NCBI GenBank assembly: GCA_029433265.1
Contig: JAQTHT010000006.1
Span: 1 to 64,000 of the forward strand
DNA: 64,000 bases
Direction: 5' to 3'
From: Leuconostocaceae bacterium ESL0958
GTDB taxonomy: Bacteria > Bacillota > Bacilli > Lactobacillales > Lactobacillaceae
Shown: positions 3,081-64,000 of the stretch, in pieces
How positions within the stretch are numbered: position 1 is the first letter of the stretch
Layout: the number at the start of each line of letters is the position of its first letter
Made by a program: the position numbers and the translations under genes
The notes under the pieces: generated by a model
The model's database searches: none
Seen by the model: the letters and a program-made list of their open reading frames with translations, nothing else
Told to the model about the DNA's origin: nothing

Positions 3081-3110
3081 AAAAAGCGAGTGCTTGTGCA
3101 CTCGCTTTTT
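3081..3110. terminator. Bidirectional terminator between convergent genes
   Basis: Perfect 13-bp stem AAAAAGCGAGTGC (3081-3093) / GCACTCGCTTTTT (3098-3110) with loop TTGT. It gives a T run on both strands, ending the kinase (plus) and the SDR gene (minus). Confidence 0.9.
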
Positions 3111-3122
3111 AGCATGCGTTGC

Positions 3123-35192: not shown

Positions 35193-37256
35193 ATGCCTCA
35201 TTATTTAATTTTGACGGAAAAACCTAGTGCCAGACGTAATTTTGAACAGGCGCTCGGCGGCAGCCGGGGAACATTTGCAGGTTTTTCTTATGAACTGGCC
35301 AACTTACGCGGGCACGTCATGACGTTGAAGGAGCCAGCTGAACAAGTGCCAGCCACTTTGAAACAGCAGTACAGTAGCTGGAAGTTGGCCGATCTTCCCT
35401 GGGATGTCAAACGGTTTACCTGGCAGCGAACCTATCTGAAAAGTAAAAACCCCAGAACGGGCCGCCAAGAAAGCAGTCGTACGCTTCTGCAAGCATTAAA
35501 GCAACAGGTAGCTGCGGGGGTTGATGGCATTGTTATTGCTACGGATAATGATCCTTCCGGCGAGGGAGAGCTACTCGCCTGGGAAGCACTGGATGCCATT
35601 CATTGGCAGGGTCCCGTGCTCAGGGCCTATTTTGTCGATGAAAGTAAGCAGGGAATCCAGAAAGCGCTGCGCCAACTAGTCGTCATTGAAGGTAAAGAAA
35701 AGGATGCCGCCTACCAAAAAGGATTGGCCCGAAATAAATGGGACTTCGCATCAATGCAGCTGACCAGGGCCGCCACAACGGCTAGCCGACAGCAGGGCTT
35801 CCAATTTGTGAGTCGACAAGGGCGGTTAAAATCAGCCATGATTGCTCGTATTTACCAGCAATTACAGGCTATTGAAAACTATCAACGGATTCCTTACTTT
35901 GAAAATCGCTATCGGGATGATCAAGGGCATCTCTATGCCCGGGCTGTGCCTAAAGATGGTGAGCAGATTTCGTTTCGTTACCCTGATAAAGCGACTGCGT
36001 TAGCACACTTTCAAGACCAAGTACCGACCGGCAAACCGGTTGTGCTATCTCAAGCTATTAAACAAAAGCAACCACCCCGATTGTTAGATTTATCTACTTT
36101 GTCCGCCCAACTGGCCAAGTTCGGCTACAGCGCCAAAAGCGTGCTGGTAACCTATCAAAAAATGTATGAAAATCAATTGGTTTCCTACCCAAGAACCGCT
36201 GATAAAACCATTACACCGGACCAATTCCAAGAGTTATTACCGCTGGTGGACCAAATGGCCCAACTCGTTGGGATTAATCGGGATTTATTGACGCACCGGC
36301 AGGCACGGGCCAGCCATGTGCAAACAGGGGGCAGCCATGGTGCTAACCGTCCGGGCCCTCAGTTACCCAGCAATTTGGCCAGTTTAAAAAAATATGGGAC
36401 AGCAGGTCCCAAAATATATGAACTGTTAGCGAAGAATTTCTTGGCCATGTTTGCTGAAAACTATCGCTACCGCCAAACGAAAGCGGCCATTCAAGAAGCA
36501 CCCGATTTCCAGACAACAATCAATGAACCGGTCGCCGCGGGCTGGCAGGCACTGTACCAGACAGGGGACAAAGAAGTGGCCAAACCGATGGGCAGTCGGG
36601 CCGAACTTTTTGTTTATGAAGGGCAAAATCCAAAGCCAATAACGCCAACTTGGTCCTGGCTCAAAGCTTTCTTGGAGAAGTATGATATCGGAACAGGGGC
36701 CACGCGGACCAGTACTTATGCTGATTTAAGCACGGGACCCGCTGCCTACATTCGAGATCAAAAGGGGCAAATTACGCTCAGTTCCTACGGTCGTGCAGCA
36801 GCGCACATCATTCAAGGCACCTACATTGCCCATCCGAAAACGACCAAGCGCATCTTTGATATTTTTGATCAGGTGGGGCGCTTTGAACTATCGGCAGACC
36901 AGGCCCTTGAATCCCTGAACATCACCGTGGCACATGATCTACCAGTGATCATGCAAAATGCCCAAACGTTGCCAGAACAGGTAACCCCACCAGCTAAGAA
37001 AAAGTATCCTAAAAAAGAGAAGGTGACCGGTTTTTGGGCACCCAAACAAGCTCAGGTCAGTTTTAGTAAAAGCTTTGCGGGCCATACATTTACCGACGTC
37101 GAGCTGGCAGCGTTGTTAGCAGGGCAGACCATCTCCTTTCCGGCCAAGAAAAAACGAGGGGGTTCTTTTACCGCCAAGGGCCACTTAGCGGAAAAACGAT
37201 TTCGGGGCAAGCCGTATGTGGGCTTTACGTTGCTTGATCAGGAATCAAAAGCATAA
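35193..37256 (+). CDS. topB: Type IA topoisomerase (TopB-like)
   Basis: Second type IA enzyme in the window, of the topoisomerase III kind that decatenates replication and recombination intermediates. Toprim residues: EKPSA near 9-13 and DNDPSGEGE at 118-126. The active tyrosine is Y332 in LVSYPRT. There are no zinc fingers. The last about 60 residues (SFAGHTFTDVELAALLAG... KPYVGF) form a small domain also found in topoisomerases and other proteins of mobile elements. Length is 687 residues. ATG at 35193 has AAGGAG upstream. It lies shortly before the plasmid-like segment. Confidence 0.9.
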   Translation: MPHYLILTEKPSARRNFEQALGGSRGTFAGFSYELANLRGHVMTLKEPAEQVPATLKQQYSSWKLADLPWDVKRFTWQRTYLKSKNPRTGRQESSRTLLQALKQQVAAGVDGIVIATDNDPSGEGELLAWEALDAIHWQGPVLRAYFVDESKQGIQKALRQLVVIEGKEKDAAYQKGLARNKWDFASMQLTRAATTASRQQGFQFVSRQGRLKSAMIARIYQQLQAIENYQRIPYFENRYRDDQGHLYARAVPKDGEQISFRYPDKATALAHFQDQVPTGKPVVLSQAIKQKQPPRLLDLSTLSAQLAKFGYSAKSVLVTYQKMYENQLVSYPRTADKTITPDQFQELLPLVDQMAQLVGINRDLLTHRQARASHVQTGGSHGANRPGPQLPSNLASLKKYGTAGPKIYELLAKNFLAMFAENYRYRQTKAAIQEAPDFQTTINEPVAAGWQALYQTGDKEVAKPMGSRAELFVYEGQNPKPITPTWSWLKAFLEKYDIGTGATRTSTYADLSTGPAAYIRDQKGQITLSSYGRAAAHIIQGTYIAHPKTTKRIFDIFDQVGRFELSADQALESLNITVAHDLPVIMQNAQTLPEQVTPPAKKKYPKKEKVTGFWAPKQAQVSFSKSFAGHTFTDVELAALLAGQTISFPAKKKRGGSFTAKGHLAEKRFRGKPYVGFTLLDQESKA

Positions 37257-38663: not shown

Positions 38664-38844
38664 TGGCTTCCTCCTCAGTTGAAGCAGTTAGAAAATGATC
38701 CTAAAAATCGGCCATGCAAGGAAAATATGGTACGTCATGATAATAGTAGGAATCAACATGGACAATCAAACGATACAGTTGATAGTGATGTTGTCTAACA
38801 AATCAGATAAATCTGTTCGACCCGCATGGTGACAGACTTTAGCA

Positions 38845-38853
38845 TGATATAAT
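38845..38853 (+). promoter_or_regulatory. Toxin mRNA promoter (extended -10)
   Basis: TGA-TATAAT at 38845-38853 with no good -35. It starts a leader of about 100 bases before the toxin ATG. The preceding stretch 38664-38844 holds no gene that I can support, only a small dyad CAGAT-AA-ATCTG at 38804-38815. Confidence 0.55.
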
Positions 38854-38884
38854 GACCGCATAGCGAGCAAGTAAAGATGGTGGC

Positions 38885-38950
38885 TATCCTGGAAAGGTGG
38901 TGGTGCCTATGATTTTAAAATCATAAGCCACGTTATCCTAGGAAAGGAGA
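38885..38950 (+). promoter_or_regulatory. Structured toxin leader with mini-ORF and two RBS copies
   Basis: The leader holds a near-repeat, TATCCTGGAAAGG at 38885-38897 and TATCCTAGGAAAGG at 38935-38948, each including a ribosome binding site. Between them lies a perfect palindrome TATGATTTTAAAATCATA (38908-38925) containing a five-codon ORF, ATG at 38909 to TAA, encoding MILKS. The second RBS serves the toxin. Confidence 0.6.
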
Positions 38951-38957
38951 AGCCTGG

Positions 38958-39065
38958 ATGTCGGTAACGGCAGCCATACAACTAATGTTTATGTTTGGGA
39001 TGTTCATCCTAGCATTGATTACATTGGTTGTTGAGCTAATCGAAAAAATTAGCAATAAAAAATAA
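38958..39065 (+). CDS. Hol_Tox-type small membrane toxin
   Basis: A 35-codon gene starting MSVTAAIQLMFMFGMF, with one strongly hydrophobic helix and a charged tail EKISNKK. Sequence style, size and a convergent antisense RNA fit the Fst/holin-like (Hol_Tox) type I toxins found on plasmids and chromosomes of Firmicutes. The ATG at 38958 follows GGAAAGGAGA. Overexpressed family members damage the membrane. Its position at the edge of a RepA_N replicon suggests a plasmid-addiction role, which is inference. Confidence 0.82.
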   Translation: MSVTAAIQLMFMFGMFILALITLVVELIEKISNKK

Positions 39066-39690: not shown

Positions 39691-39933
39691 ATGAAAAAGA
39701 CGTTAGGGACACTAATTCATGATTATCGGATGCAACATGCACTGAGCCAAGCTGACTTTGCTAGGCAAGCTAATTTAAGTCAACAAAAGGTTTCAAGAAT
39801 TGAAGCTAAGGGGTTTTATAACCCAACATTGTTAGATTTAGAAAAAATTGCACACGCGATGTTTCTGACAGTACCCGAATTGCTAAGTCAACTTTTTTTT
39901 GAAGAATTAGAGGATCCCTATGGAGCGAATTAA
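39691..39933 (+). CDS. Xre-family repressor
   Basis: An 80-residue helix-turn-helix protein; the HTH covers about residues 10-65 (LSQADFARQANLSQQKVSRIE). It has no other domain. The gene overlaps repA by 14 bases, and two matching dyads flank its promoter, so it probably represses its own operon and so controls RepA supply. ATG at 39691 follows GAGGCG. Confidence 0.85.
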   Translation: MKKTLGTLIHDYRMQHALSQADFARQANLSQQKVSRIEAKGFYNPTLLDLEKIAHAMFLTVPELLSQLFFEELEDPYGAN

Positions 39934-40771
39934 TCTTAGCCAAATTAAAACTTTTGAGCAGTTTTATCGGCTTCCAAAAGTATTCTTTACTTCTGACAAA
40001 TATAAAGACATGAGGCTCGAATCAAAAACTGCCTATGCAATCTTACGTGATCGTTTTGAACTATCGATTCAAAATGGTTGGGTCGATAATCAGGGCGATG
40101 TATTCTTCGTCTTTACCGTCGATGAACTTGGAGCACTTCTTAGTTGCGGAAAAAATAAGGTGATTGGCATTAAAAAAGACTTGTCCCAACATGGGTTGTT
40201 GGAAGAAGAGCGGCAAGGACTAAATCGACCAAACCGTCTATATCTTGGGACAATTGCCTCTGATATTGAAGCTAAAAAAAGCTCAGAACCCTTGGTAAAA
40301 GCGGAAGTTTCAAAATCAAACTTCCGGGGGTTTGAAAATCAAACTTCCGGAGGTTTAAAAAACAAACTTCAAGAAGTTTCAAAATCAAACCCTAATGATA
40401 CTGAGTATAGTGATACTGATTTAAATGATGACGATGATGAATATACATATACAGCACCCGAGAGAAACACATCGGTCAGCCAATCGTCATGCTCAGATGA
40501 ATTAGCAAGGCTCTATGCCAATGAAACTGGTCAAACTTTAAACCCAGCTCAAGTTAAGAAGCTGAAAAATCTAGGCGACTGGTTTGGAGTTGAAAAAACG
40601 CAGGCGGCTATTAAGACTGCCGCCGAAGCAGGGGGCCAGAGTCTTCGTTACGTAGAGGTTGTACTAAATAATGCAGCTAAAGAACAGGCAGCGCTTGGCC
40701 ACTTAAATCAGCAATCACCAGATCAAGTCCATAAACCGAAAGTGCCAGCGTTTAAATTTGCTGGCTTTTAG
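39920..40771 (+). CDS. repA: RepA_N-family replication initiator
   Basis: Theta-type plasmid initiator of 283 residues. The N-terminal domain (about residues 1-115: KTFEQFYRLPKVFF..., YAILRDRFELS, GWVDNQGDVFF, CGKNKVIGIKKDL) is characteristic of RepA_N plasmids of Firmicutes. The middle is low-complexity and encoded by the iteron array, and residues about 185-255 form a separate helical domain (ELARLYANETGQTLNPAQ). In this family the origin lies within the gene, which the iterons here support. It overlaps the xre gene. Confidence 0.9.
   Translation: MERINLSQIKTFEQFYRLPKVFFTSDKYKDMRLESKTAYAILRDRFELSIQNGWVDNQGDVFFVFTVDELGALLSCGKNKVIGIKKDLSQHGLLEEERQGLNRPNRLYLGTIASDIEAKKSSEPLVKAEVSKSNFRGFENQTSGGLKNKLQEVSKSNPNDTEYSDTDLNDDDDEYTYTAPERNTSVSQSSCSDELARLYANETGQTLNPAQVKKLKNLGDWFGVEKTQAAIKTAAEAGGQSLRYVEVVLNNAAKEQAALGHLNQQSPDQVHKPKVPAFKFAGF
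40307..40398 (+). repeat. Four 23-bp iterons inside repA (probable origin)
   Basis: Direct repeats begin at 40307, 40330, 40353 and 40376, exactly 23 bp apart. Each opens with GTTT-N7-AAAC, followed in the first three by CTTCC or CTTCA. Because 23 is not a multiple of three, each copy is read in a different frame, so selection is on DNA, consistent with RepA binding. Confidence 0.85.
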
Positions 40772-41054
40772 AGGGGTGGCAGCGTCCTGAGTAAGACGCC
40801 ATAAAAGACTTAACTTTGTACTTTGAAAATTTAGAAAAAGCGACGTCCTGATTAGCACGGCTAGGGATAAGACAAATAGGGGAGTCGCTATACTGTGAAA
40901 ATCAGACCCGCCGCCACAGTGAGTAGTAGAAGCTCACGGAGTTAGAGATTCCTTGACTAAAAATCTCGCATAAAAAATGCAGTCACCTATCTATCATTTA
41001 GATAGCGTTCAGCTAAAGCTGTAATACAGCCATGCAGCCTAAGGAGGTCGTAAC
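40772..41054 (+). ncRNA. Hairpin-rich structured leader before the partition genes
   Basis: 283 bases with no reading frame but a chain of stems: GCGTC/GACGC (40782-40799), AGCGAC/GTCGCT (40839-40889), ACTGTG/CACAGT (40892-40920), GTGAG/CTCAC (40919-40937), GAGATT/AATCTC (40945-40967), GCAT/ATGC (40968-40980), CTATCT/AGATAG (40987-41005) and GCTGT/ACAGC (41018-41030). AAGGAGG and the next ATG follow directly. I know no named RNA class that fits; it could be a cis-regulator, an antisense target or part of an origin or transfer site. Confidence 0.5.
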
Positions 41055-41345
41055 ATGCATGAAATTACTATTAACGATTTAAGGCGCCTAGGGCGTTTGG
41101 GGAATGTAACCGGTCGACTTAATAATGGTCGGCAAGGAGAATTGCGGCAAGATGGCTTTTATTATCGCCGCCATGATGCCATTATTGGTGGCCTTTCGGC
41201 CGAAGTTAAATTTAGAATCAGTTACAGGAAGGCCATCGGCCAAATCCAGATTCTAAAGCAAGGAACTAAGCTGATTGCGACGAGACAAAATAATTGCCTC
41301 GTTGCCACAATTCACTATGACTTACCCAAAGCACCTAGGAGCTAA
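41055..41345 (+). CDS. Small unknown protein, paralogue A
   Basis: A 96-residue basic protein I do not recognise, starting MHEITINDLRRLGRL. It shares a pattern with the protein at 42322-42585: D-[LI]-R, L-[ND]-[ND]-G, ELR-[QE]-D and a final I-x-x-G-x-[RK]-[LM]-[IL]-A-[TI]-R. It has no membrane helix. The ATG at 41055 is preceded by AAGGAGG, and the gene ends three bases before parA, so a role in partition or its control is inferred. Confidence 0.75.
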   Translation: MHEITINDLRRLGRLGNVTGRLNNGRQGELRQDGFYYRRHDAIIGGLSAEVKFRISYRKAIGQIQILKQGTKLIATRQNNCLVATIHYDLPKAPRS

Positions 41346-41347
41346 TT

Positions 41348-42073
41348 ATGAAAATCATTACTATCAACGTCAATAAGGGTGGGGCCGGTAAAACAACCCT
41401 GGCCTACAACCTGGCAGAATATTTGAAACAGGACCAGCGGGTCTTGTTGATGGACTTTGACGATTCCACAAACTTAACGCATCGTTATGGTCATTACACT
41501 AACCTGAACCAAACAGTAATTAATCTGTTTGAAAACGGTGATGTGACACCAATTAATTTGTCAAAGAACTTAGATTTAATTGCTGGACACGCTTCTGTGG
41601 AACAGCTAAAAGAACGGTTAAACACACGCCGCCGTCGTGAATACATCTTAGGGAAGTGGTTAGGGTTAAACGAAGAGTCCTTAACCGCAAAATATGACTA
41701 CATCGTAATTGACACTGAAAACGATGAAGGGATTCTCACGCAGAACGCCCTAATCGTCTCTGATTTGATTTTAGGTGTTGCGGAAGCAGCCAAAGACTCC
41801 TTCATGGCCCTCATTGCCTTGAAAAATTTTGTCCAAGAGCTCAACGAAGAGTTCGCCACCAATGCCAAATTAGCTTTTATCGCGAACAAGATTAATTTTT
41901 CAGAAAACGCGTCAAAGGCTTTACTCGAAGATTTAAATGAATATCCCGAATATCTTGGATATTTACCGCGAAGAACGAAAATTGCGGATGAAAAACCAAT
42001 TTTTGGCACGAATGACACGGCGCTTCAAAAGCAAGTACGGGGAATCTTCACCAGAATTTTGGAGGTGGCTTGA
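41348..42073 (+). CDS. parA: ParA-type partition ATPase
   Basis: Walker-type plasmid partition ATPase, 241 residues, without an N-terminal HTH. The deviant Walker A is NKGGAGKTTLAYNL near residue 8, Walker A' LLMDFDDSTNLT, and Walker B YDYIVIDTEN. The usual second Asp-Gln of ParA (DxDPQ) is replaced by DFDDS. The gene overlaps its probable centromere-binding partner by one base. Confidence 0.92.
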   Translation: MKIITINVNKGGAGKTTLAYNLAEYLKQDQRVLLMDFDDSTNLTHRYGHYTNLNQTVINLFENGDVTPINLSKNLDLIAGHASVEQLKERLNTRRRREYILGKWLGLNEESLTAKYDYIVIDTENDEGILTQNALIVSDLILGVAEAAKDSFMALIALKNFVQELNEEFATNAKLAFIANKINFSENASKALLEDLNEYPEYLGYLPRRTKIADEKPIFGTNDTALQKQVRGIFTRILEVA

Positions 42074-42321: not shown

Positions 42322-42585
42322 ATGAGATTAAAGGATATCCGACAGATTGCTTATCAGTACCAAGTAGCAACAGCTAAGTTGGACGATGGACAGATTTACG
42401 AATTAAGGGAAGATTGTTTGATTAGTCGTCAACCAGAATTGGCAGTAATTGCTAATCGCGAGCATGAGATCCGACGCAAATTGTCGTTGTCACAAAATTG
42501 GGAACGCATTCAGTCCATTAAGGTGGGGCATCGGATGTTAGCTATTCGTGATCGTAAGGGAAGCTTGGTTCAAAAAGAAAATTAA
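42322..42585 (+). CDS. Small unknown protein, paralogue B
   Basis: An 87-residue charged protein starting MRLKDIRQIAYQYQV. It is related to paralogue A at 41055-41345 across most of its length, with conserved ELREDCL, LSLSQNWERIQ and MLAIRDR segments. Function is unknown. It starts three bases after the ParB/ParG-like gene, so it belongs to the same operon. Confidence 0.72.
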   Translation: MRLKDIRQIAYQYQVATAKLDDGQIYELREDCLISRQPELAVIANREHEIRRKLSLSQNWERIQSIKVGHRMLAIRDRKGSLVQKEN

Positions 42586-45081: not shown

Positions 45082-45107
45082 AGCCACTCGCAAGAGTGGT
45101 TTTTTTA
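45082..45107 (+). terminator. Terminator before the adhesin gene
   Basis: CCACTC (45084-45089) / GAGTGG (45094-45099), loop GCAA, T run to 45107. It is followed directly by the hairpin at 45109-45124. Confidence 0.8.
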
Positions 45108-45108
45108 T

Positions 45109-45124
45109 TGCCTAGATTTAGGCA
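45109..45124 (+). promoter_or_regulatory. Leader hairpin copy 1 (adhesin)
   Basis: Perfect stem TGCCTA-GATT-TAGGCA directly between a terminator T run and the RBS GGAAAGG of the adhesin gene. A second copy with the same layout precedes the pilin gene at 53511-53528. Confidence 0.6.
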
Positions 45125-45140
45125 GGAAAGGAAAAAGCGT

Positions 45141-48100
45141 ATGGAAAGAATGATCGAACAACGGCCATTCCAGCGATATAAGTTGTACAAGGATGGAAAA
45201 GCCTTAGTGACTGCGTTAATGTTGGGAACTCTCATGATTGGAGGTTCCTTATTGACGAATCATACGGCTTCTGCAGATTCTGGTCGAGTGGCCTATAACG
45301 GCAAAGATGGTTACGTTAAATTTGACAATGGCCAGTCTGAGCCGGTTGTGAATTTATCAATGGATGGTCAAGTTGTTTTCTGTATTAACCCCTTTGTGTT
45401 AGTACAAAATGGAGCCCTGGCTACGCCTGGTGGCCAAACTTCTGCCCAAAATGATTTGTGGGCTAAGCTGAGTAGTTATCAGCGTGCTCTAATTAATAAT
45501 GTGGCTTGGGTGGGCCAATCACAAGGTGCTGCAACAGACCGTGAAACTTACATGGCGACTCAGATTGTTGTCTGGCAACTTCTAGCAGGACAGAATGGTG
45601 TCCCAGGTATCATGAACGGCTCAGGCCGAGTGGATGCCAGTCAATTGACGAATACCATGGGTACCAAAGTTACAGGCTGGGACTCTAATTTAGGGGCTGG
45701 AGTAGTCAATAAGGCGCAATCCATCTTGGATAATGCGGCAGCCCTTTCTCAGGTTCCAGAGTTTTCTGCAGCTCCCCTGAACGTCACTGCTGGAGGAACG
45801 GCTGAACTAGCCGCTACTAATGGCGTTGATTTGTCCAAATTTAAGTACGTTCGAGGCGATAACTCAATCTCCATGGTGCCTAACGGTTCGGGCGGATTGA
45901 CATTATCCGTAGCGGATTCGGCATCGGCAGGCACCCATTCCATCACATTGGATACTGGAATTAACCGGAATAATGTTAGTTATGTATATGGTGTTACCAA
46001 TCCGGACGGTTCGGAAGGCCAACCACTTTATGGAGCAAAAGACCCATCTCGCCAAGCAGCGAATGTCCAAGTTGAGGTCAAAAAAGCCAATCTGAAAATT
46101 GATAAATCTATTCTGAAGGCAGGAATGGGTGATAGTAAGCAGCCAACCAATGGCAACTATTCCTTGTCCGGCAATGTTTTTGAAGTTCACAAAGATACGG
46201 CAGATGGGCCCGTTGTCCGAGAACTGACCACTGATGATCAAGGACAAGCCGAAACGGGCCCTAATATGGATTATGGTCGTTATGTCATCACGGAAAAGCA
46301 GGCCAGCCAGGGCCTTAATCGTTCTTGGAAGCCGGTAACGGTCGATCTAAATGGGAGCGGCCAAATCGAGCAAACCGCTCGAGGTGATAATCAGGAAGTA
46401 ACTGGCGGCATTAAGATCCAAAAGACTGGAGCTGAGTCTGGCACCCAGCAATGGAATGCCAACTACTCCTTGAAGGATAATGTCTTCAAAATTCATAAGG
46501 ATAGCCTAGATGGTGAAGTGGTCGCAGAAGTGTCCACAGATGCAAATGGTGTTGCTGAAAGTGCCAAGAATCTACCCCTAGGACACTATGTGGTTGAAGA
46601 GGTGCAGGCTTCTAAGGGATTCTTGAAAACTTTCAAGCCCCAGGAAGTTGATATTAAGTACGCTGGTCAGGAAGTGCCGATTGTTATTGCCGCTACTGGC
46701 GGTGCTAACCAGGAAGTCAAGGGGCAGTTGATTATTGATAAGTCGGGGGCCCAATCCGGCAAGAACATGATCAATAACCATTACTCCTTGGCCGGCAATG
46801 AATTTGATATTTTCGATGAACAAAACCGGTTAGTCGATCACGTTGTGACTGATGCCAGCGGGAAAGCTTATTCTAAGACGGACCTAAAGTTAGGCAAGTA
46901 TACGGTCGTAGAAACGAAAGCTTCCGAAGGCTTTGCCAAAACAGCCCAACCCCAAAAGGTAGCGTTGACCTATAACGGCCAACAAACTCCGGTCGTCTTT
47001 GACACGGCCTATGCCCAAAATCAGGAAGTTAAGGGTGGCATTACCATTCAGAAGACTGGGGCCGAAACTGGCACTCAAATGTGGAATAACAACTATTCAC
47101 TTTCGGGCAATGTCTTCAAGATTCATAAGGGCGACATTAACGGTGAGGTTGTCGATGAAGTATCCACGGATGCCAATGGCTATGCTCATACAAGAGAAGA
47201 TTTGCCATTAGGCCATTACGTTGTCGAAGAGGTCCAGGCTTCCAAAGGCTTTGTCAAGACCTTCCAACCAAAGGATGTTGATATTAATTATGCCGGTCAA
47301 GATGTTCCTCTAGTTTTGTCTATGACCAGTGGTTCAAACCAAGAAGTGAAGGGGCAGCTTGTTATTGATAAGTCCGGTGCTACCTCGGGCAAGCAGATGA
47401 TCAATGGTCACTACTCTTTGGCGGGCAATGAATTTGATATTTTGAATGAAGGCGGTCAAGTCGTTGACCATGTTGTGACTGATGCTTCAGGTAAGGCTTA
47501 TTCGAAAGCAGACTTGAAGCTAGGTAAGTACACTGTTAAGGAAACCAAAGCTTCGGAAGGCTTTGCCAAAACAGCCCAACCGCAAAAGGTTGAGCTTGCC
47601 TATGCTGGCCAGCAAGTACCCGTGGTAATGGACACCGCTTATGCCCAAAATCAGGAAGTTAAGGGCGGCATTAGCATCCAAAAGACCGGCGCCGAATCTG
47701 GTACCCAGGCCTGGAATGCTAACTACTCCTTAGTTGGTAACGTCTTCAAGATTCACAAGGATAACCTGCAGGGTGACGTGGTGGCTGAAGTCGCCACCGA
47801 TGCCAACGGGCATGCCGAAACCCCTAAGGATTTACCGCTAGGTCATTATGTCGTCGAAGAAGTCCAAGCTTCTAAGGGATTCTTGAAAACTTTCAAGCCC
47901 CAGGAAGTTGATATTAAGTACGCTGGTCAGGAAGTGCCGATTGTTATTGCCGCTACTGGCGGTACCAACCAAGAAGTTAAGGGACAACTGATTATTGATA
48001 AGTCGGGTGCGCAATCCGGCAAGAACATGATCAATAACCATTACTCTTTGGCCGGCAATGAATTCGATATTTTCGATGAACAAAACCGGTTAGTCGATCA

Positions 48101-51100
48101 CGTTGTGACTGATGCCAGCGGAAAAGCTTATTCTAAGACGGACCTAAAGCTAGGCAAGTACACAGTCGTGGAAACCAAGGCCTCGGAAGGCTTTGCCAAG
48201 ACGGCTGATCCACAAAAAGTAGCGTTGACCTATAACGGCCAACAAACCCCGGTCGTCTTTGATACGGCTTACGCCAAGAACCAAGAAGTTAAGGGTGGCA
48301 TCACCATTCAAAAGACTGGTGCAGAGTCGGGTAAGCAACAATGGAATGGTAATTACTCGCTAGCGGGCAACGTGTTCAAGATTCATAAGGATAGCCTGAA
48401 CGGTGAAGTCGTGGATGAAGTAACGACGGACGCCAACGGTTATGCGAAAACTCGGGAAGATTTGCCACTAGGCCATTACGTGGTTGAAGAAGTGCAGGCT
48501 TCCAAAGGCTTTGTCAAGACCTTCCAACCAAAGGATGTTGATATTAATTATGCCGGCCAAGATGTTCCTTTAGTCTTGTCTATGACCGAGGGTACGAATC
48601 AGGAGGTCAAGGGCCAGCTTGTTATTGATAAGTCAGGTGCTACCTCGGGTAAGCAGATGATCAACGGCCACTATTCTTTGGCCGGCAATGAGTTCGATAT
48701 TTTCGATGAACAAAACCACTTGGTGGATCATGTCACGACGGACGCTTCCGGTAAAGCTTACTCCAAGAACGGCTTGAAACTGGGTAAGTATACGGTCGTA
48801 GAAACCAAAGCTTCGGAAGGCTTTGCCAAAACAGCCCAACCGCAGAAGGTTGAACTTTCCTATGCTGGCCAGCAAGTACCCGTCGTCTTTGACACGGCCT
48901 ATGCCCAAAACCAGGAAGTTAAGGGCGGCATTAAGATCCAAAAGACTGGAGCTGAGTCTGGCACCCAGCAATGGAATGCCAACTACTCTTTGAAAGACAA
49001 TGTCTTCAAGATTCATAAGGACAGCCTAGATGGTGAAGTAGTCGCAGAAGTGTCCACGGATGCCAATGGTGTTGCCGAAACTGCCAAGGATCTACCCCTA
49101 GGACACTATGTGGTCGAAGAAGTCCAGGCTTCTAAGGGATTTTTGAAGACCTTTAAGCCGCAAGATGTCAATATTAAGTACGCTGGTCAGGAAGTGCCAA
49201 TTGTCATTGCCGCTACCGGCGGTACCAACCAAGAAGTTAAGGGACAACTGATTATTGATAAGTCGGGTGCGCAATCCGGCAAGAACATGATCAACAACCA
49301 TTACTCCTTGGCCGGCAATGAGTTCGATATCTTCGATGAACAAAACCACTTGGTGGATCATGTCACGACGGACGCTTCCGGTAAAGCTTACTCCAAGAAC
49401 GACTTGAAACTGGGTAAGTATACGGTCGTAGAAACGAAAGCTTCCGAAGGCTTTGCCAAAACGGCCCAACCCCAAAAGGTAGCGTTGACCTATAACGGCC
49501 AACAAACGCCCGTCGTCTTTGACACGGCCTATGCCCAAAACCAGGAAGTTAAGGGCGGCATTAAGATTCAAAAGACCGGGGCTGAGTCTGGTACCCAGCA
49601 ATGGAATGCCAACTACTCCTTGAAGGATAATGTCTTCAAAATTCATAAGGACAGTCTAAATGGTGAAGTGGTCGCAGAAGTGTCCACGGATGCCAATGGT
49701 GTTGCCGAAACTGCCAAGGATCTACCTCTGGGACACTATGTGGTCGAAGAAGTCCAGGCTTCGCAAGGATTCTTGAAGACCTTTAAGCCGCAAGATGTCG
49801 ATATTACCTATGCCAGTCAAGAGGTTCCAATTGTTATTGCTGCTACCGGCGGTACCAACCAAGAAGTTAAGGGACGTATCGTTATCGATAAATCTGGTGT
49901 TAGTTCTGGTAAGAAGATGATCAATGATCACTATACGCTAGAAGGTAACGAATTCGATATTCTCGATGAGCAAGGTAACGTAGTTGACCATGTAACGACC
50001 GATGCTTCTGGTAAGGGTTATTCGAAAACGGACTTGAAGTTGGGCAAGTACACTGTCAAAGAAACCAAGGCTTCAGAAGGATTTGCCAAGACAGCAGAGG
50101 ACCGGCAAGTCACCTTATCTTATAATGGGCAAGATCAAGCCGTTGTTTTTGACACTGCTAATGAAAAGAATCAAGAAGTTTTTGGTGGCATTCAAATTCA
50201 TAAAGAAGGTATGGAATCTGGTAAGAACCCATGGAATGCTAATTATTCTCTGAAGGATAATGTTTTTGCTATTCATAAAGATTCATTAGATGGAGAAGTT
50301 GTTGCCGAAGTATCCACAGATGCCAATGGCTATGCCAATACTGCGTTAAACTTGCCATTAGGCCATTATGTTGTAGAAGAAAAACAAGCTTCTACCGGAT
50401 TCTTAAAGACTTTCAAACCCCAAGAAGTCGATATTAAGTACGCCGGTCAGGAAGTGCCAATTGTCATCGCAGCAACTGGCGGTACCAATCAAGAAGTGAA
50501 AGGCCAATTAATCATTGATAAGTCCGGGGCTACATCAGGCAAAAACATGATTAATGAACACTACACGTTAGCTGGAAATGAATTTGACATTTTCGACGAA
50601 CAAAACCAGTTGGTCGACCATGTGACCACCGATGCTTCAGGTAAGGCCTACTCCAAGACGGACCTAAAGTTAGGCAAGTATACGGTCAAAGAAACCAAGG
50701 CTTCAGAAGGCTTTGCCAAAACGGCTGATCCACAAAAAGTTGCACTGACCTATAACGGCCAACAAACCCCGGTCGTTTTTGATACAGCCTATGCCAAGAA
50801 CCAGGAAGTGAAGGGTGGCATCACCATTCAAAAGACTGGGGCCGAAACGGGTACCCAGCAATGGAATAATCACTATTCTCTGGCGGGTAACGTGTTTAAG
50901 ATTCATAAAGACAACCTAAACGGTGACGTCGTGGATGAAGTAACGACCGATGCCAACGGTTATGCGAAAACTCGGGAAGATTTGCCACTAGGCCATTATG
51001 TTGTCGAAGAAGTCCAGGCCTCCAAAGGGTTTGTCAAAACCTTCCAACCGAAGGATGTTGATATTAATTACGCCGGTCAAGATGTCCCTCTAGTTTTGTC

Positions 51101-53393
51101 CATGACCGAAGGTACGAACCAAGAGGTTAAAGGAAAGATTGTGGTCGACAAATCCGGCTTGGAGTCCGGCAAGAAGCAGTGGAATGGGAACTATTCACTA
51201 GCCGGCAATGTCTTTGATGTACACGAAGGTAACGAATTAGGACGTGTGGTTGCCCAAATGACGACCGATGACCAAGGACATGCGGAAACCTCCACTAATC
51301 TGCCGCTTGGCGACTACGTTGTCACTGAAAGTAAGGCTTCCAAGGGATTTACGAAAACGTTTAAACCTCAAAAAGTTAGCCTGAAGTATGCCGGGCAAAA
51401 AGTGGCACTAGTCGCTGATTTGGCCCGAGATACCAATCAAGAAGTGACTGGCGAAACCACTGTTACCAAGCAAGATAAGCAGACAGGTGACAATACGCAA
51501 GGACGAGCAACCTTTGCAGGGGCAGAATACACCCTTTATCACCAAGATGGCACGCCTGTGAAGTGGCGAGAAAGTGGTCAGCCGACACCAGAAGTAACTG
51601 TTGGTAAAAAAGTAAATCGTGATCAAGTAACGCTCCGAATTGATGAAGATTTGAATCAAGCTGGGGTGAAGCATTTAGCTTTGGGAGATTATTATTGGCA
51701 GGAAACCAAAGCCCCTGAAGGCTATCAAATTGATAAAAAGCAATATCAATTCGCCATTAATTACCAGGATGAGTACACGCCGGTTGTAACCAATGATGAG
51801 ACTTCTCAGGAGCAGGTCATTAACTTCTCGTTTGACGGCTTTAAGTACGTCAAGTCTGCTTCTGGCTCGGCTCAATCCGGTTACAACGGTATTCAGTTGA
51901 AGATGATCCCGATTAACGGTACCAAGGGAGAGCCACAGGTTGTCACAACGGAAACGGATGCCAATGGTTATGATGGCTACTATCGCTTCAATAATTTGGC
52001 CTATGGGGACTATGAACTTTGGGAAGTGAATGCACCAGAAGGCTTCCAACATATTGAACCACTTTATGTACACATTCGAATGAATGCAGATAAGACAGCC
52101 TATGTCTTTACGGTAAATGAAAAAGGCCAAGAAGCACCGATTAAAACCATGACTGTACCGGTTAGCCAAATCAATGAGCAGTCGGACAACATTTATCTAT
52201 CCAAGTTATTCCTTTTTGATGCGTCTGAAAAGCACAATGATTGTCAAACTTGCGCCGGAGGTGGACAGCCTAATATCAACATTAACAACAGTTCATCAGC
52301 TAATCCGGTCATCAATACCAACGCTAATCCATCAGTGCAGAATAATCCTGCTATCAACGCTAATCCATCAGTGCAGAATAATCCTGCTATCAACGCTAAC
52401 CCATCTGCACAAAGCAATTCCGTTACGAATGCTAATCCTATTGTTAATAACACAAATCAACAACAACAGGAAGAACACCAACAGCAGGCTAATGGGAATA
52501 ACGACTTGAGGCAAGAAGGTGGTACCAACAATCAAAATAGTCAACCTTCAGTGGATGTCAAAGCACCAGATGTTCATCAAACAACAGGATCTGTTAATCA
52601 GGAAGGACAACCGGTTCAGATTAGTACTGGTAGAGTTGAACAGACAGGAAGCCCAATCACACAAACAGGGGCTCCTGTGCATCAGGAAACTGGTGCAGTA
52701 ACGCAAGGGGGTGCCCAAACCGAGCAAAAGACTGGTGCTGTTGAACAAGCAGGCTCCCCAGTTCATCAACAAACTGGCGGTGTTGTTCAGGAAGGGGCCA
52801 AGGCTAATCAAACGACTGGTGCTGTTGAACAAACTGGCAGTCCAGTTACTCAAAATGGCGGCACGATGGCACAAACAGCTAATCCATCGAATAATGTCAA
52901 TCAACAGCAGCAACAGCAACAACAACAGCAGTTGATGCCAAAAATTGAGCAGCAGCCACAAGAGGAACAGACCACCACAAAGCAAACGCAGACACAGCCT
53001 ACTCAACCAAAGGTAGAACAGGGTAGCAATCAGCAAACACAGGAACAGCATTCTCAAACAGATGCAGATCCACAAGTTGCTTCATCAGTGCCAAAGCAAA
53101 GTGAAAACGTTACCGAATCGGCTCCAGTGACTGAAAGTACTCAACCACAAGAAACGGCTGCACCAGTTAATTCAGCCTCACAGGTTCAGCAACAAGAACC
53201 AACACGGGCAGCGGCCGTTAAGCAAGACTTGCCGTCGACGGGTAAAAAAGCAAAGCATAATGCAAAACCAGGATACTTAGCACTTGGTTTCGCAGCGGCC
53301 AGTGCAATTGTCGTTACAGGAAACTTTGACCAAACCAAGCAACTCTATCGCAAGAAGAAGCGGCTGGCTTTAAAGAAGAAAGCTACAGCATAA
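45141..53393 (+). CDS. Giant LPXTG adhesin with thioester domain and Cna-B array
   Basis: 2750 residues. Signal peptide 1-45 (cleavage near TASA-DS). A thioester domain (about 50-225) has C81 in VVFCINP and Q141 in ATQIVVW, the pair that forms the reactive bond in Gram-positive adhesins. Then one divergent and 16 regular Cna-B-like units (about 315-2100), each with the Lys (IxKxG), Glu (VVEE or VVET) and Asn (NQEV) expected for isopeptide bonds, and two further SpaA-like domains to about 2340. A CQTC motif, an Asn/Gln-rich stalk with TG repeats and LPSTG at 2697, with hydrophobic helix and basic tail, complete it. No sortase gene is in the window. Confidence 0.93.
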   Translation: MERMIEQRPFQRYKLYKDGKALVTALMLGTLMIGGSLLTNHTASADSGRVAYNGKDGYVKFDNGQSEPVVNLSMDGQVVFCINPFVLVQNGALATPGGQTSAQNDLWAKLSSYQRALINNVAWVGQSQGAATDRETYMATQIVVWQLLAGQNGVPGIMNGSGRVDASQLTNTMGTKVTGWDSNLGAGVVNKAQSILDNAAALSQVPEFSAAPLNVTAGGTAELAATNGVDLSKFKYVRGDNSISMVPNGSGGLTLSVADSASAGTHSITLDTGINRNNVSYVYGVTNPDGSEGQPLYGAKDPSRQAANVQVEVKKANLKIDKSILKAGMGDSKQPTNGNYSLSGNVFEVHKDTADGPVVRELTTDDQGQAETGPNMDYGRYVITEKQASQGLNRSWKPVTVDLNGSGQIEQTARGDNQEVTGGIKIQKTGAESGTQQWNANYSLKDNVFKIHKDSLDGEVVAEVSTDANGVAESAKNLPLGHYVVEEVQASKGFLKTFKPQEVDIKYAGQEVPIVIAATGGANQEVKGQLIIDKSGAQSGKNMINNHYSLAGNEFDIFDEQNRLVDHVVTDASGKAYSKTDLKLGKYTVVETKASEGFAKTAQPQKVALTYNGQQTPVVFDTAYAQNQEVKGGITIQKTGAETGTQMWNNNYSLSGNVFKIHKGDINGEVVDEVSTDANGYAHTREDLPLGHYVVEEVQASKGFVKTFQPKDVDINYAGQDVPLVLSMTSGSNQEVKGQLVIDKSGATSGKQMINGHYSLAGNEFDILNEGGQVVDHVVTDASGKAYSKADLKLGKYTVKETKASEGFAKTAQPQKVELAYAGQQVPVVMDTAYAQNQEVKGGISIQKTGAESGTQAWNANYSLVGNVFKIHKDNLQGDVVAEVATDANGHAETPKDLPLGHYVVEEVQASKGFLKTFKPQEVDIKYAGQEVPIVIAATGGTNQEVKGQLIIDKSGAQSGKNMINNHYSLAGNEFDIFDEQNRLVDHVVTDASGKAYSKTDLKLGKYTVVETKASEGFAKTADPQKVALTYNGQQTPVVFDTAYAKNQEVKGGITIQKTGAESGKQQWNGNYSLAGNVFKIHKDSLNGEVVDEVTTDANGYAKTREDLPLGHYVVEEVQASKGFVKTFQPKDVDINYAGQDVPLVLSMTEGTNQEVKGQLVIDKSGATSGKQMINGHYSLAGNEFDIFDEQNHLVDHVTTDASGKAYSKNGLKLGKYTVVETKASEGFAKTAQPQKVELSYAGQQVPVVFDTAYAQNQEVKGGIKIQKTGAESGTQQWNANYSLKDNVFKIHKDSLDGEVVAEVSTDANGVAETAKDLPLGHYVVEEVQASKGFLKTFKPQDVNIKYAGQEVPIVIAATGGTNQEVKGQLIIDKSGAQSGKNMINNHYSLAGNEFDIFDEQNHLVDHVTTDASGKAYSKNDLKLGKYTVVETKASEGFAKTAQPQKVALTYNGQQTPVVFDTAYAQNQEVKGGIKIQKTGAESGTQQWNANYSLKDNVFKIHKDSLNGEVVAEVSTDANGVAETAKDLPLGHYVVEEVQASQGFLKTFKPQDVDITYASQEVPIVIAATGGTNQEVKGRIVIDKSGVSSGKKMINDHYTLEGNEFDILDEQGNVVDHVTTDASGKGYSKTDLKLGKYTVKETKASEGFAKTAEDRQVTLSYNGQDQAVVFDTANEKNQEVFGGIQIHKEGMESGKNPWNANYSLKDNVFAIHKDSLDGEVVAEVSTDANGYANTALNLPLGHYVVEEKQASTGFLKTFKPQEVDIKYAGQEVPIVIAATGGTNQEVKGQLIIDKSGATSGKNMINEHYTLAGNEFDIFDEQNQLVDHVTTDASGKAYSKTDLKLGKYTVKETKASEGFAKTADPQKVALTYNGQQTPVVFDTAYAKNQEVKGGITIQKTGAETGTQQWNNHYSLAGNVFKIHKDNLNGDVVDEVTTDANGYAKTREDLPLGHYVVEEVQASKGFVKTFQPKDVDINYAGQDVPLVLSMTEGTNQEVKGKIVVDKSGLESGKKQWNGNYSLAGNVFDVHEGNELGRVVAQMTTDDQGHAETSTNLPLGDYVVTESKASKGFTKTFKPQKVSLKYAGQKVALVADLARDTNQEVTGETTVTKQDKQTGDNTQGRATFAGAEYTLYHQDGTPVKWRESGQPTPEVTVGKKVNRDQVTLRIDEDLNQAGVKHLALGDYYWQETKAPEGYQIDKKQYQFAINYQDEYTPVVTNDETSQEQVINFSFDGFKYVKSASGSAQSGYNGIQLKMIPINGTKGEPQVVTTETDANGYDGYYRFNNLAYGDYELWEVNAPEGFQHIEPLYVHIRMNADKTAYVFTVNEKGQEAPIKTMTVPVSQINEQSDNIYLSKLFLFDASEKHNDCQTCAGGGQPNININNSSSANPVINTNANPSVQNNPAINANPSVQNNPAINANPSAQSNSVTNANPIVNNTNQQQQEEHQQQANGNNDLRQEGGTNNQNSQPSVDVKAPDVHQTTGSVNQEGQPVQISTGRVEQTGSPITQTGAPVHQETGAVTQGGAQTEQKTGAVEQAGSPVHQQTGGVVQEGAKANQTTGAVEQTGSPVTQNGGTMAQTANPSNNVNQQQQQQQQQQLMPKIEQQPQEEQTTTKQTQTQPTQPKVEQGSNQQTQEQHSQTDADPQVASSVPKQSENVTESAPVTESTQPQETAAPVNSASQVQQQEPTRAAAVKQDLPSTGKKAKHNAKPGYLALGFAAASAIVVTGNFDQTKQLYRKKKRLALKKKATA
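46404..51131 (+). repeat. Tandem 630-bp A/B Cna-B repeat array
   Basis: Alternating type A (GGIxIQKTGAExG) and type B (GQLxIDKSGAxSG) units of about 106 and 104 residues. Type A units start near 46404, 47034, 47664, 48294, 48924, 49554, 50184 and 50814, 630 bp apart; seven B units lie between, and a hybrid final unit starts near 51132. Some stretches are identical 1,260 bp apart, for example around 46609-46702 and 47869-47962. Confidence 0.9.
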
Positions 53394-53481: not shown

Positions 53482-53510
53482 AGCAACGAAAATTTTTCGT
53501 TGCTTTTTTA
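53482..53510 (+). terminator. Adhesin terminator
   Basis: AGCAACGAAAA (53482-53492) / TTTTCGTTGCT (53494-53504), then T's. It is directly followed by leader hairpin copy 2. Confidence 0.85.
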
Positions 53511-54954: not shown

Positions 54955-57330
54955 ATGTTTTTGAAATCAAAATCATCTAAAAAGCGTCGGCCAGTTGCTG
55001 CGCTACGTAAGCAGGGACGTTTAGCTGAAGAGCTCCCTAGTACCCAAGACAGCCTGCATTTTACAAGCATTGATCAGACCGGGCTGATGCGGTTACCACA
55101 AACAGAATATTCGCAACAATATCAATTAAACGATATTGCTTACGAAGCGGCTGGAGAGATGAAACAAGATGATGTTGTAGAATCCTATGCCCGAGCGATT
55201 AATAAGCTGGATCATCATGATCGATTACAGTTATTGGTGGTCAATGAACGGGTAGGTAAGCGCGCTATTGAAAAATTATTGATGCCACTGGCCGATGATT
55301 CAAATGATGTCTACCGTCAAGAAATCAATCAGCTAATTACTGAAAAATTTGAAAAGAACGAAAACGAATTCAATGCGAAACGTTACTTAACGCTCACTAC
55401 GGAAAGTATGACGGCTGCCCAAGGAAGTCGCGATCTTAACACCTTAGCACAATCTTTTGCACAATCCTTCCAGGACAATGCCGTGGATCTACAAATGACC
55501 CCTTTAGACGGTCAGGAACGGATTGACCAAATCAATCAATTAACCAATCCAGGGGTACAAAATCCAACCGTTCGTTGGCAAGCAGAAGATGATAGTAAAG
55601 ATTACGTTGCCCCCGCAAATCTTCATTTTGATAATGCTTTTTTTAAAGTTAACGAACGTTATGCGCGTGTTCTGTATATTCGTAACTATCCAACCTTAAT
55701 GGAAGATAAGTTGATTCGAGAACTATTAAAGTTGAATGAAGAGTTAGCCATTAGCCTGCATGCTAGTCCCTATAATATGCAGGAAGCCAAACGCAAAGTT
55801 CAAAAAATTGCCACCTTAAACAAGATTGATTTAATCCGTCAACAAAAATCTAATTTTAAAGAGGGGATTGGCGAAGATCTGGTTTCGGGCCTGTCGACCA
55901 ATGTCAAGGACAGTACTGAATCGTTAATGCAACATTTTGAAGATAATACCGAAAAATTGTTTGTAGGAACCTTTGCTGTGATGTTTTTTGCTGACAGTCG
56001 TAAAGAAATGAAGCGGATTACCGATGACATTAAGGGCGTCGGGCAAGCAGCAGGAGTCAATTTTGAAACAGCTTACAATTGGCAAGAAGAAGGATTTAAT
56101 AGCATTTTGCCCTTTGGAAAAAATTACTTAAATCAACCAATGGCCAAAGAACATATTCGTGATATGACCACTTTAAATATAGCGACTCAAGTTCCCTTTA
56201 CCTCCGTTGAGATGCAAAGTGAGCATGGCGAATTTTTTGGTCAAAATCAAATAACAGGTAACGTCATCACTATTGATCGCAAGAACCGGCATGAATTGTT
56301 AACACCTTCAGGTTTGATTTTAGGAACTTCAGGATCGGGAAAATCAGTGGCCACAAAGTATCAAATTATGAATACGCTTTTAAATCATCCCAATGATCGT
56401 ATCGTTATCGTTGATCCAGAAAGTGAATATTTACCCATTGGCCAAGCATTAGGAGCTGAGATCTTGGACATCTCAACGGGCACCAATAATCATTTGAATT
56501 TATTGGATCTGCCTAAAAAGGAAGATTTGGACCGTGAAGATCAAAAACTGGATTTGGTCAAGGAAAAGACTAATCTTTTGGTGTCATTGTTGGAAGAGGT
56601 GGTGGAATTATCTGCCGTAGATCGAGGCATTATTGATCGGGTAACTGGCGAAACTTATCGCAAATATGATCAGCCCACATTGAAGGAATGGCAGTTGGTT
56701 TTAGAAGAACAACCAGATCCACAGGCAGATGACTTAGCCAATGCCATGTATCCCTACACAATGGGTTCCCAGGATATTTTTGCTTACCCAACTAATATTG
56801 ATTTGTCGAGCCGTTTTTTGATTTTTAACACCAAGAATTTAGACCGGAAGTTGAAAACCTTTGCTATGAAGGTTATTTTGGACCAAATTTGGAAGCAGGT
56901 TGTTGTTAATCAAAATAAAGCCGCCACTTGGCTATACTTTGACGAAATCCAAGTTAACTTTGATACAGCGGATAACGCACAATGGTTTACCAATCTGTGG
57001 GCTCGAGTTCGAAAATATGGTGCGATTCCAACGGGTATTACCCAAAATATCATGACCCTCTTGGAGAAAGAAGCGGGTCAAAAAATGGTGATGAACACAG
57101 AATTTATGATCTTACTAAGACAGAAAGGGCCTGACTTAAAGTTAATGTCAGAATTGCTCGGTTATGATGAAGTCTTATTGAGACAATTTTGTGGTGGCCG
57201 CCCCGCAAAGGGAACCGGAATTATTCAGGCCGATAATGTCATGATTCCGTTTGAAAACGAAATTCCAGAGAATACCAAGCTATTTGGTCTCTTAAATACT
57301 GATGTAGTTACTGATGTAGTTAATGAATAG
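54955..57330 (+). CDS. VirB4/TraE-family T4SS ATPase
   Basis: 791-residue cytoplasmic ATPase that energises assembly of the transfer channel. Walker A GTSGSGKSVATKY is near residue 457, Walker B region is WLYFDEIQVNF, and FMILLRQKGPDLKLM and the final GRPAKGTGII are typical of TraE/TrsE. The N-terminal half (about 1-440) is the CagE/TrbE-like domain. ATG at 54955 follows AGGAGG. The best-conserved gene of the element and a good phylogenetic marker. Confidence 0.95.
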   Translation: MFLKSKSSKKRRPVAALRKQGRLAEELPSTQDSLHFTSIDQTGLMRLPQTEYSQQYQLNDIAYEAAGEMKQDDVVESYARAINKLDHHDRLQLLVVNERVGKRAIEKLLMPLADDSNDVYRQEINQLITEKFEKNENEFNAKRYLTLTTESMTAAQGSRDLNTLAQSFAQSFQDNAVDLQMTPLDGQERIDQINQLTNPGVQNPTVRWQAEDDSKDYVAPANLHFDNAFFKVNERYARVLYIRNYPTLMEDKLIRELLKLNEELAISLHASPYNMQEAKRKVQKIATLNKIDLIRQQKSNFKEGIGEDLVSGLSTNVKDSTESLMQHFEDNTEKLFVGTFAVMFFADSRKEMKRITDDIKGVGQAAGVNFETAYNWQEEGFNSILPFGKNYLNQPMAKEHIRDMTTLNIATQVPFTSVEMQSEHGEFFGQNQITGNVITIDRKNRHELLTPSGLILGTSGSGKSVATKYQIMNTLLNHPNDRIVIVDPESEYLPIGQALGAEILDISTGTNNHLNLLDLPKKEDLDREDQKLDLVKEKTNLLVSLLEEVVELSAVDRGIIDRVTGETYRKYDQPTLKEWQLVLEEQPDPQADDLANAMYPYTMGSQDIFAYPTNIDLSSRFLIFNTKNLDRKLKTFAMKVILDQIWKQVVVNQNKAATWLYFDEIQVNFDTADNAQWFTNLWARVRKYGAIPTGITQNIMTLLEKEAGQKMVMNTEFMILLRQKGPDLKLMSELLGYDEVLLRQFCGGRPAKGTGIIQADNVMIPFENEIPENTKLFGLLNTDVVTDVVNE

Positions 57331-59231: not shown

Positions 59232-59234
59232 TCA

Positions 59235-59265
59235 AAAGTAGTCGAATTGATCGACTACTTTTTTT
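59235..59265 (+). terminator. Terminator inside the transfer operon
   Basis: AAAGTAGTCGA (59235-59245) / TCGACTACTTT (59251-59261), loop ATTGA, T run. It would split the T4SS operon unless it is read through or antiterminated. Confidence 0.85.
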
Positions 59266-62983: not shown

Positions 62984-64000
62984 ATGCAAACCTATCAGAA
63001 AAAAATTAAACCACATCTACTATTAGGGGGCGTCTTAGCCGTCTTTTTTTATTGGTTAATCAATTTTTTAATCGGATTACCTGGTCAAACATTTACTGAA
63101 AAAGAGATGGCGTTGTTCAACTTTAATGAAACAGTGCAAAATCATTTGCACCATTGGTACCAATATTTTGGCATCTCTCTATGGGCCTTTCTGGGCGCTT
63201 GGTTTGGATTTATGCTAGCGTTACTACTCTATACCTACCATAATGATCGCGGTGTCTATCGGAATGGCGAAGAGCATGGTTCGGCCCGCTACGCTACCCA
63301 AAAAGAATTAGATCATTTTGCTGATCATCAGCCAGAAAATAATATTTTGTTATCTAAAAATGGCCGGATGGGCCTATTTAATCGGCTAATTCCCCGTCCA
63401 TACCAACGTAATAAGAATTGTGTTGTCATTGGGGGCTCTGGTTCCGGAAAAACGTTCACTTTTTTAAAGCCTAACTTGATGCAAATGAATGCCTCTTTTA
63501 TTGTCACGGATCCGAAAGGATTGTTGGTGCACGAAACCGGGCAGATGTTAAAAAATAATGGGTACCAAATCAAGGTCTTTGATCTAGCGCGCCTAACTGA
63601 TACAGATCGTTTTAATGTATTCAACTACATGCCTACAGAATTAGATGTGGATCGTGTTTTAGAGAGTATTTCGATTGCTATCCAGGATAGCGACAAAAAG
63701 AAAGACTTTTGGCAACTGGCATCAGATTTGCTGTTACGCTCCCTGATTGCTTTTCTATGGTATGACGGCCAAGAAAAAAACTACACACCGAATATTGCGG
63801 AGGTAGCTGATTTGCTACGGGGGCTAGAACGAGAGGACGACAATCGTCCCAGTCTGACGGAAAAGCTGTTTGATGCTTTGGAAAAGAAAAGGCCTGGTAA
63901 CTATGCCAGCAAGCAATTCCAGTTATTTCAGGCGACGGCCGGAGCGCCAGAAACCCAAGCCGGGGTGATTGGCAACGCCGTTGCGATCTTTTCAGTGTTT
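62984..64000 (+). CDS. VirD4/TraG-type coupling protein (partial)
   Basis: Open to the right edge; 339 codons visible. Two N-terminal membrane helices (about 12-32 and 66-86), EHGSARYAT, Walker A IGGSGSGKTFT near residue 150, and FIVTDPKG are typical of T4SS coupling proteins (PcfC/TrsK/TraG). It links the relaxase-bound DNA to the channel. ATG at 62984 follows GAGGAGG. The catalytic Walker B lies beyond the window. Confidence 0.92.
   Translation, partial: MQTYQKKIKPHLLLGGVLAVFFYWLINFLIGLPGQTFTEKEMALFNFNETVQNHLHHWYQYFGISLWAFLGAWFGFMLALLLYTYHNDRGVYRNGEEHGSARYATQKELDHFADHQPENNILLSKNGRMGLFNRLIPRPYQRNKNCVVIGGSGSGKTFTFLKPNLMQMNASFIVTDPKGLLVHETGQMLKNNGYQIKVFDLARLTDTDRFNVFNYMPTELDVDRVLESISIAIQDSDKKKDFWQLASDLLLRSLIAFLWYDGQEKNYTPNIAEVADLLRGLEREDDNRPSLTEKLFDALEKKRPGNYASKQFQLFQATAGAPETQAGVIGNAVAIFSVF

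Follow-up and report, generated by a model that had tools for sequence, protein, structure and literature searches.

The conAn system of pLS20 combines a protein, ConAn1, with an RNA, conAn2, at the head of conjugation operons that exceed 30 kb and contain many terminators (PMC8955417). The RNA antiterminates and the protein confers processivity on the polymerase so altered (PMC8955417). By their descriptions, canT, put and EAR act through RNA and do so without a dedicated protein (PMC11658703; for EAR and put also PMC8955417). The parts of the TraE1 literature considered here describe TraE1 of pAD1 as promoting transcription of the conjugative genes, and those parts state no processivity role in antitermination for it (PMC7117660). 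Here we compare these systems with a leader RNA found in the window, by which we mean the whole 64,000-nucleotide stretch of contig JAQTHT010000006.1 that was analysed. The leader system was not described in the literature searched, and the original conAn study may already include some Lactobacillales members.

The leader (40772-41054) lies between repA (39920-40771) and the ATG at 41055; just as the preliminary description of this DNA had reported, it is free of genes and ends with a Shine-Dalgarno sequence. The two copies of GTCCTGA noted there are also present, one at 40784-40790 in hairpin H1 and the other at 40845-40851 in the core (Table 1). An A-rich stretch separates the 5′ strand of P2b from the 3′ strand of P1. 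The DNA immediately before the leader showed no promoter-like site, and therefore the transcript may begin before repA.

Table 1. Positions of the leader elements, the adjoining genes and the predicted terminators.
Feature	Position	Strand	Remarks
Whole leader RNA	40772-41054	+	spans repA stop to start of the 96-aa ORF
H1 hairpin GCGTCCTGAGTAAGACGC	40782-40799	+	GACCTnAnnAAGTC in relatives; judged by eye
boxA-like sequence GTACTTTGAAAATTTAGAA	40818-40836	+	TGTTCTTTGAAAATTGAATA in relatives
P1 5′ strand GCGACGTCC	40840-40848	+	partner 40880-40888; covariation
TGATTAG, conserved	40849-40855	+	
P2a 5′ strand CGGC	40858-40861	+	partner 40910-40913; covariation
P2b 5′ strand GGG	40864-40866	+	partner 40907-40909; covariation
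P1 3′ strand GGGAGTCGC	40880-40888	+	within the P2 loop, hence pseudoknot; covariation
P2b/P2a 3′ strands CCCGCCG	40907-40913	+	covariation
H4 hairpin GTGAG...CTCAC	40919-40937	+	covariation (helix 4)
GGAGTT and H5 hairpin GAGATT-CCTTGACTAAA-AATCTC	40938-40967	+	most conserved module; covariation; TraE-type RNAs and conAn2 show a related signature
H6 hairpin TATCTATCATTTAGATA	40988-41004	+	UACG loop in relatives; by eye
H7 hairpin GCTGTAATACAGC	41018-41030	+	GTAAAT-type loop in relatives; by eye
Shine-Dalgarno TAAGGAGGT	41040-41048	+	strong; closes the leader
96-aa protein, proposed ConAn1/TraE-like processivity factor	41055-41345	+	predicted helix and small beta barrel
ParA, second gene of the operon	41348-42073	+	accessory; many relatives lack it
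87-aa diverged paralogue of the 96-aa protein	42322-42585	+	E=6e-9; same operon
Predicted intrinsic terminator within operon	45082-45101	+	
Predicted intrinsic terminator within operon	53482-53504	+	
VirB4-type conjugation ATPase	54955-57330	+	
Predicted intrinsic terminator within operon	59234-59262	+	
Weaker terminator-like hairpin near VirD4 gene start	63025-63047	+	

The structure of the leader exists, and the evidence for it is covariation rather than folding energy. The leader does not stand out in folding energy (z = -1.7, with 13 of 200 shuffles folding equally well), and z-scores below its own occur in several of the intergenic stretches nearby. The argument that its pairing density stands far above that of its neighbours therefore fails. 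The eight consecutive stems of the preliminary description are also wrong in detail, since the middle of the leader is a pseudoknotted core, in which P1 is interleaved with P2a and P2b in a way that minimum-energy folding cannot draw. In 16 sequences, P1 and P2 together give a covariation score of 0.766, compared with 0.228 ± 0.028 for shuffled and at most 0.11 for slid controls, where the strands were excised by hand around conserved anchors because MAFFT misaligned the 3′ strand of P1, a procedure that favours pairing and whose bias is bounded only in part by the two kinds of controls. In the same sequences 94.5% of the P1/P2 cells pair, and changes on both sides occur at 13 of the 16 pairs. 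P2, H3, H4 and H5 jointly score 0.608 against 0.187 ± 0.016 after shuffling in a model-fitted alignment, and H5 alone scores 0.613 against 0.203 in a plain MAFFT alignment. Owing to the pseudoknot and to differences in length, RNAalifold recovered two helices and no more from the raw MAFFT alignment. The compensatory changes are of the RNA type, include G-U pairs and are strand-specific, and they argue for an RNA over a DNA site.

Relatives of the 96-aa protein were found in Fructobacillus tropaeoli, Weissella oryzae, the Lactococcus plasmids pFI430 and LB7, L. garvieae and Lactovum miscens, as well as in further Lactobacillales genomes, mostly of one streptococcal-family genus that we take to be Streptococcus. 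A covariance model seeded with seven streptococcal-type leaders only, the window being excluded, matches 40835-40974 of the window at E=1.2e-11, and in a search of the 1.3-Mb genome this match is unique (E=7e-11). The preliminary description had named in advance, as the way to refute it, a check of homologues for conservation and covariation. With the covariance model, the leader was found upstream of the relatives of the 96-aa protein at every one of the 19 loci tested, the seed loci among them (elements of Fructobacillus, Weissella, Lactococcus, Lactovum and streptococcal type), and its helices covary. Across 247 genomes of the order, the RNA match is always accompanied by the protein, genome by genome. 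No Rfam family reaches its gathering score in the leader, the only match at E<=10 being one chance snoRNA (E=2.2). The suggestion of a new cis-regulatory RNA that corresponds to no known riboswitch has thus stood up, the leader being conserved and covarying. Comparison of the leaders with plasmids by blastn gave no match, except for Lactococcus from a Lactococcus query. A first scan of genome contigs with the single 96-aa protein and a scan of viral contigs with its profile gave no match either.

The family of the 96-aa protein can be aligned to ConAn1 over the N-terminal half of the latter (E=5e-4 to 9e-4, HHalign probability 24-32%), and weakly to TraE-type proteins (E=6e-4 and 7e-3). The pLS20-family ConAn1 gene used in these comparisons was set by the record annotated 'Antiterminator protein ConAn1'. 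The 96-aa protein is predicted to fold as a helix and a small beta barrel (pLDDT 84.5). Searches of PDB and of viral folds returned no significant match to it, but weak Sm-like barrels, which are compatible with an RNA-binding role and prove nothing. The 87-aa paralogue is located three genes downstream, without an RNA leader of its own, and is retained in the F. tropaeoli element.

ConAn1 and the TraE-type proteins are clear homologues (E=3e-13), with ConAn1 matching the NCBIfam TraE family (NF041439) at E=3e-4. A single ORF in one genome (G346) is reached both by the 96-aa profile and by the TraE family. Just downstream of TraE-type genes, the RNA model finds matches with E-values of 5e-5, 3e-4 and 5e-4, and a fourth of 0.007 (updated model). 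Through this shared protein and RNA kinship, the TraE-type loci therefore form a bridge between the group of the 96-aa protein with its leader and the ConAn1 group. In loci of other Lactobacillales (L067-L074), NF041439-like genes are followed by RNAs, some of which the model matches; boxA-like sequences come after the TraE-type gene in L073 and L074.

How far, then, does the kinship extend to the conAn2 RNA itself? Judging by conservation, conAn2 presumably corresponds to the conserved stretch just after the ConAn1 gene, at 3083-3465 of pLS20. A match of the whole leader to conAn2, made by eye, did not hold up, as the covariance models R2 and R3 fail to find conAn2. What the two RNAs have in common is a GAGUU-hairpin, with the loop end CUGCUACAAA in conAn2 and AGACUAUAA here. 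In a shuffle test over Bacillus and Listeria sequences, an H5-like hairpin has p values of 0.007-0.037 per sequence, with stems that differ and Bacillus copies that are interdependent. With this one common hairpin, direct homology of the two RNAs is no more than suggested.

Nearly all copies of the leader carry a boxA-like sequence before P1, which in many of them reads (T)GTTCTTTGAAAAYTGAATA or nearly so. In one complete streptococcal-family genome (G342), the spacer between 16S and 23S rRNA contains TGTCCATTGAAAATTGAATATC, 166 nt beyond the end of 16S. The conjugation leader in this genome has AGTTCATTGACAACTGAATATC, which matches that spacer sequence. We take the matched spacer sequence to be the Gram-positive boxA. 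The rRNA spacer TGTCCATTGAAAATTGAATA of this genome may likewise be set against the leader sequence TGTTCTTTGAAAATTGAATA at locus L017. The copy in the window has diverged (GTACTTTGAAAATTTAGAA). The boxA pattern is short, and lone matches are not significant by themselves. In the window's own genome, near matches to boxA do not adjoin recognisable rRNA, and no match to an rRNA spacer was obtained; a genome of the same genus likewise gave no boxA match to an rRNA spacer. Judging from the sequence match, the boxA of the leader may make use of NusB and NusE.

To the left of ~35 kb the contig is chromosomal, with topA, dnaE, pyruvate kinase and purA/purB. At ~35 kb, purB and formate-THF ligase give way to a RepA_N conjugative element, and this junction suggests either an integrated plasmid or ICE or an assembly join. 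To the right, the element encodes RepA_N, ParA, a 2765-aa surface protein, a VirB6-like protein, VirB4, VirD4, MobC and a relaxase, of which VirD4 (contig 62984-64816), MobC and the relaxase (contig 70120-71805) are located beyond the window. Its main genes are on the same strand for ~31 kb, from the first gene at 41055 to the end of the relaxase gene at contig 71805, and form a predicted operon. Compact intergenic sense terminators are predicted at 45082, 53482, 59234 and contig 64815; weaker candidates occur at other sites. Over nine operons, 31 predicted terminators are sense and 19 are antisense, which is a moderate excess.

Three further features of the element may be recorded. The repetitive 2765-aa surface protein is encoded within the conjugation operon at 45096-53393, a place held by an SspB-type adhesin in the Lactococcus plasmids. 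A match to Rfam rli28, a Listeria sRNA, is present at 38838-39049 (60.9 bits), upstream of the element's xre-repA genes. Two type IA topoisomerase genes (35193-37256 and contig C22:73813-75867), whose proteins are 69% identical, are located one near each end of the element.

We propose that the leader is the 5′ RNA of the conjugation operon and that it supplies one of the two halves of a processive antitermination system of the conAn type, a reading to which the sequence comparisons lead us to assign a probability of roughly 0.78. While the leader is being transcribed, its boxA-like sequence, probably together with NusB/NusE, would attach to the elongating RNA polymerase, as would the P1/P2/H5 fold, and the 96-aa ConAn1/TraE-like protein would join the polymerase next, as processivity factor. 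The polymerase modified in this way would pass the terminators and reach virB4, virD4 and the relaxase gene, and stray transcripts that bypass the leader would end at the first terminator. It is from the sequences that we infer polymerase binding, the participation of Nus factors and terminator readthrough for this system.

Does the RNA need the protein at all? The leader could be an antiterminator acting by RNA alone in the style of put, EAR and canT, all of them precedents without a dedicated protein (PMC11658703), and the 96-aa protein could then serve elsewhere, for example in the regulation of conjugation. The weak link between this protein and ConAn1 would suit such an arrangement, but RNA and protein strictly co-occur, the TraE-type loci provide a link to the two-component ConAn system, and a resemblance to canT is absent: near seven Tn916-Xis genes above the curated cut-off there is no R2 match, and upstream of three Tn916-Xis genes the H5 module is missing. 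We therefore consider it unlikely that the RNA works by itself.

Another interpretation is that the 96-aa protein controls translation by binding to its own leader, in the manner of ribosomal proteins, elongation being unaffected. It is not hard to see why this autoregulatory 5′ UTR might be thought of, as the RNA immediately precedes the ORF with H6 and H7 adjoining the Shine-Dalgarno sequence, the two partners always occur together, and a small beta barrel is predicted for the protein. However, in TraE-type systems the RNA of this family comes after the protein gene, where it cannot control the initiation of translation of that gene, and autoregulation explains neither the boxA-like sequence nor the terminators within the operon. 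The explanation is, to our mind, quite improbable.

The preliminary description had placed the leader ahead of a partition operon and had thought of a centromere or an incompatibility RNA, which would here serve the downstream ParA. The gene that follows does encode ParA here, as it does in Fructobacillus, Weissella and Lactovum. However, within the ~20 kb examined, ParA was not found in five of eight related operons (L050, L051, L055, L056 and L057, from the set L050-L057), where the RNA, the protein and VirB4 persist, VirB4 following the RNA and the protein in all eight; what accompanies the RNA throughout is therefore the small protein with the conjugation operon, and not partition. Together with compensatory changes typical of RNA, G-U pairs among them, and with no repeat array being seen in the leader, this makes a role in partition very improbable. 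A part of a transfer origin, to which a hairpin-rich stretch on a conjugative element might point, is hardly credible given that the relaxase and MobC genes are ~29 kb away, that the covariation is that of a strand-specific RNA and that a boxA-like sequence is present.

A wider picture can also be drawn, in which a single superfamily of antitermination RNAs, pseudoknotted and bearing a boxA, would be common to the conjugation operons of Lactobacillales and Bacillales and would work with proteins of the ConAn1/TraE type. The RNA would have borrowed the boxA/Nus machinery of rRNA, and TraE1, long known as an activator of pheromone plasmids, would act as a processivity factor in antitermination and not as an activator in the classical sense. 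We hold this picture tentatively, at somewhat less than even odds. In any case, a covariance-supported pseudoknotted structure is now available for the probable RNA component of a processive antitermination system in conjugative elements of lactic-acid bacterial and streptococcal type, and the findings suggest that these leader RNAs use boxA like rRNA operons do. The older question of how TraE1-type activators turn on very long conjugation operons is thereby made testable. The authors of the conAn study argue that such systems restrict the hosts able to express the transfer operon (PMC8955417), which gives them relevance to the spread of conjugative elements.

Through a comparison with the described systems, the place of the leader can be defined as follows. 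Like the proposed leader system, canT of Tn916 is an RNA for processive antitermination that belongs to a conjugative element of Gram-positive bacteria (PMC11658703), but no partner protein is described for it, and it has no sequence or structure match to the leader. EAR of the eps operon and put of HK022 can be likened to the leader by their descriptions, the nascent RNA making the polymerase terminator-resistant as proposed here, and by the same descriptions they are set apart, since they work without a dedicated protein, unlike the leader with its 96-aa partner. With rRNA boxA/Nus antitermination the leader shares a boxA-like element, as found in the rRNA spacer. The TraE-type systems, among which pAD1 stands outside the comparison, resemble the 96-aa system in having a weakly related protein and an adjoining RNA of the same family, although the RNA is downstream of their gene rather than upstream and the sequences have diverged far. 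Closest is conAn of pLS20, where, as here, an RNA and a small protein head a conjugation operon of more than 30 kb with internal intrinsic terminators. In conAn, however, the RNA comes after the protein gene and ConAn1 has 172 aa, whereas here the RNA comes before the gene and the protein has 96 aa; a boxA-like sequence and the P1/P2 pseudoknot are features of the leader that are not established for conAn2. The working idea is thus that of conAn, to which the present locus adds an RNA placed before the gene, a short protein, a boxA-like sequence and a covarying pseudoknot.
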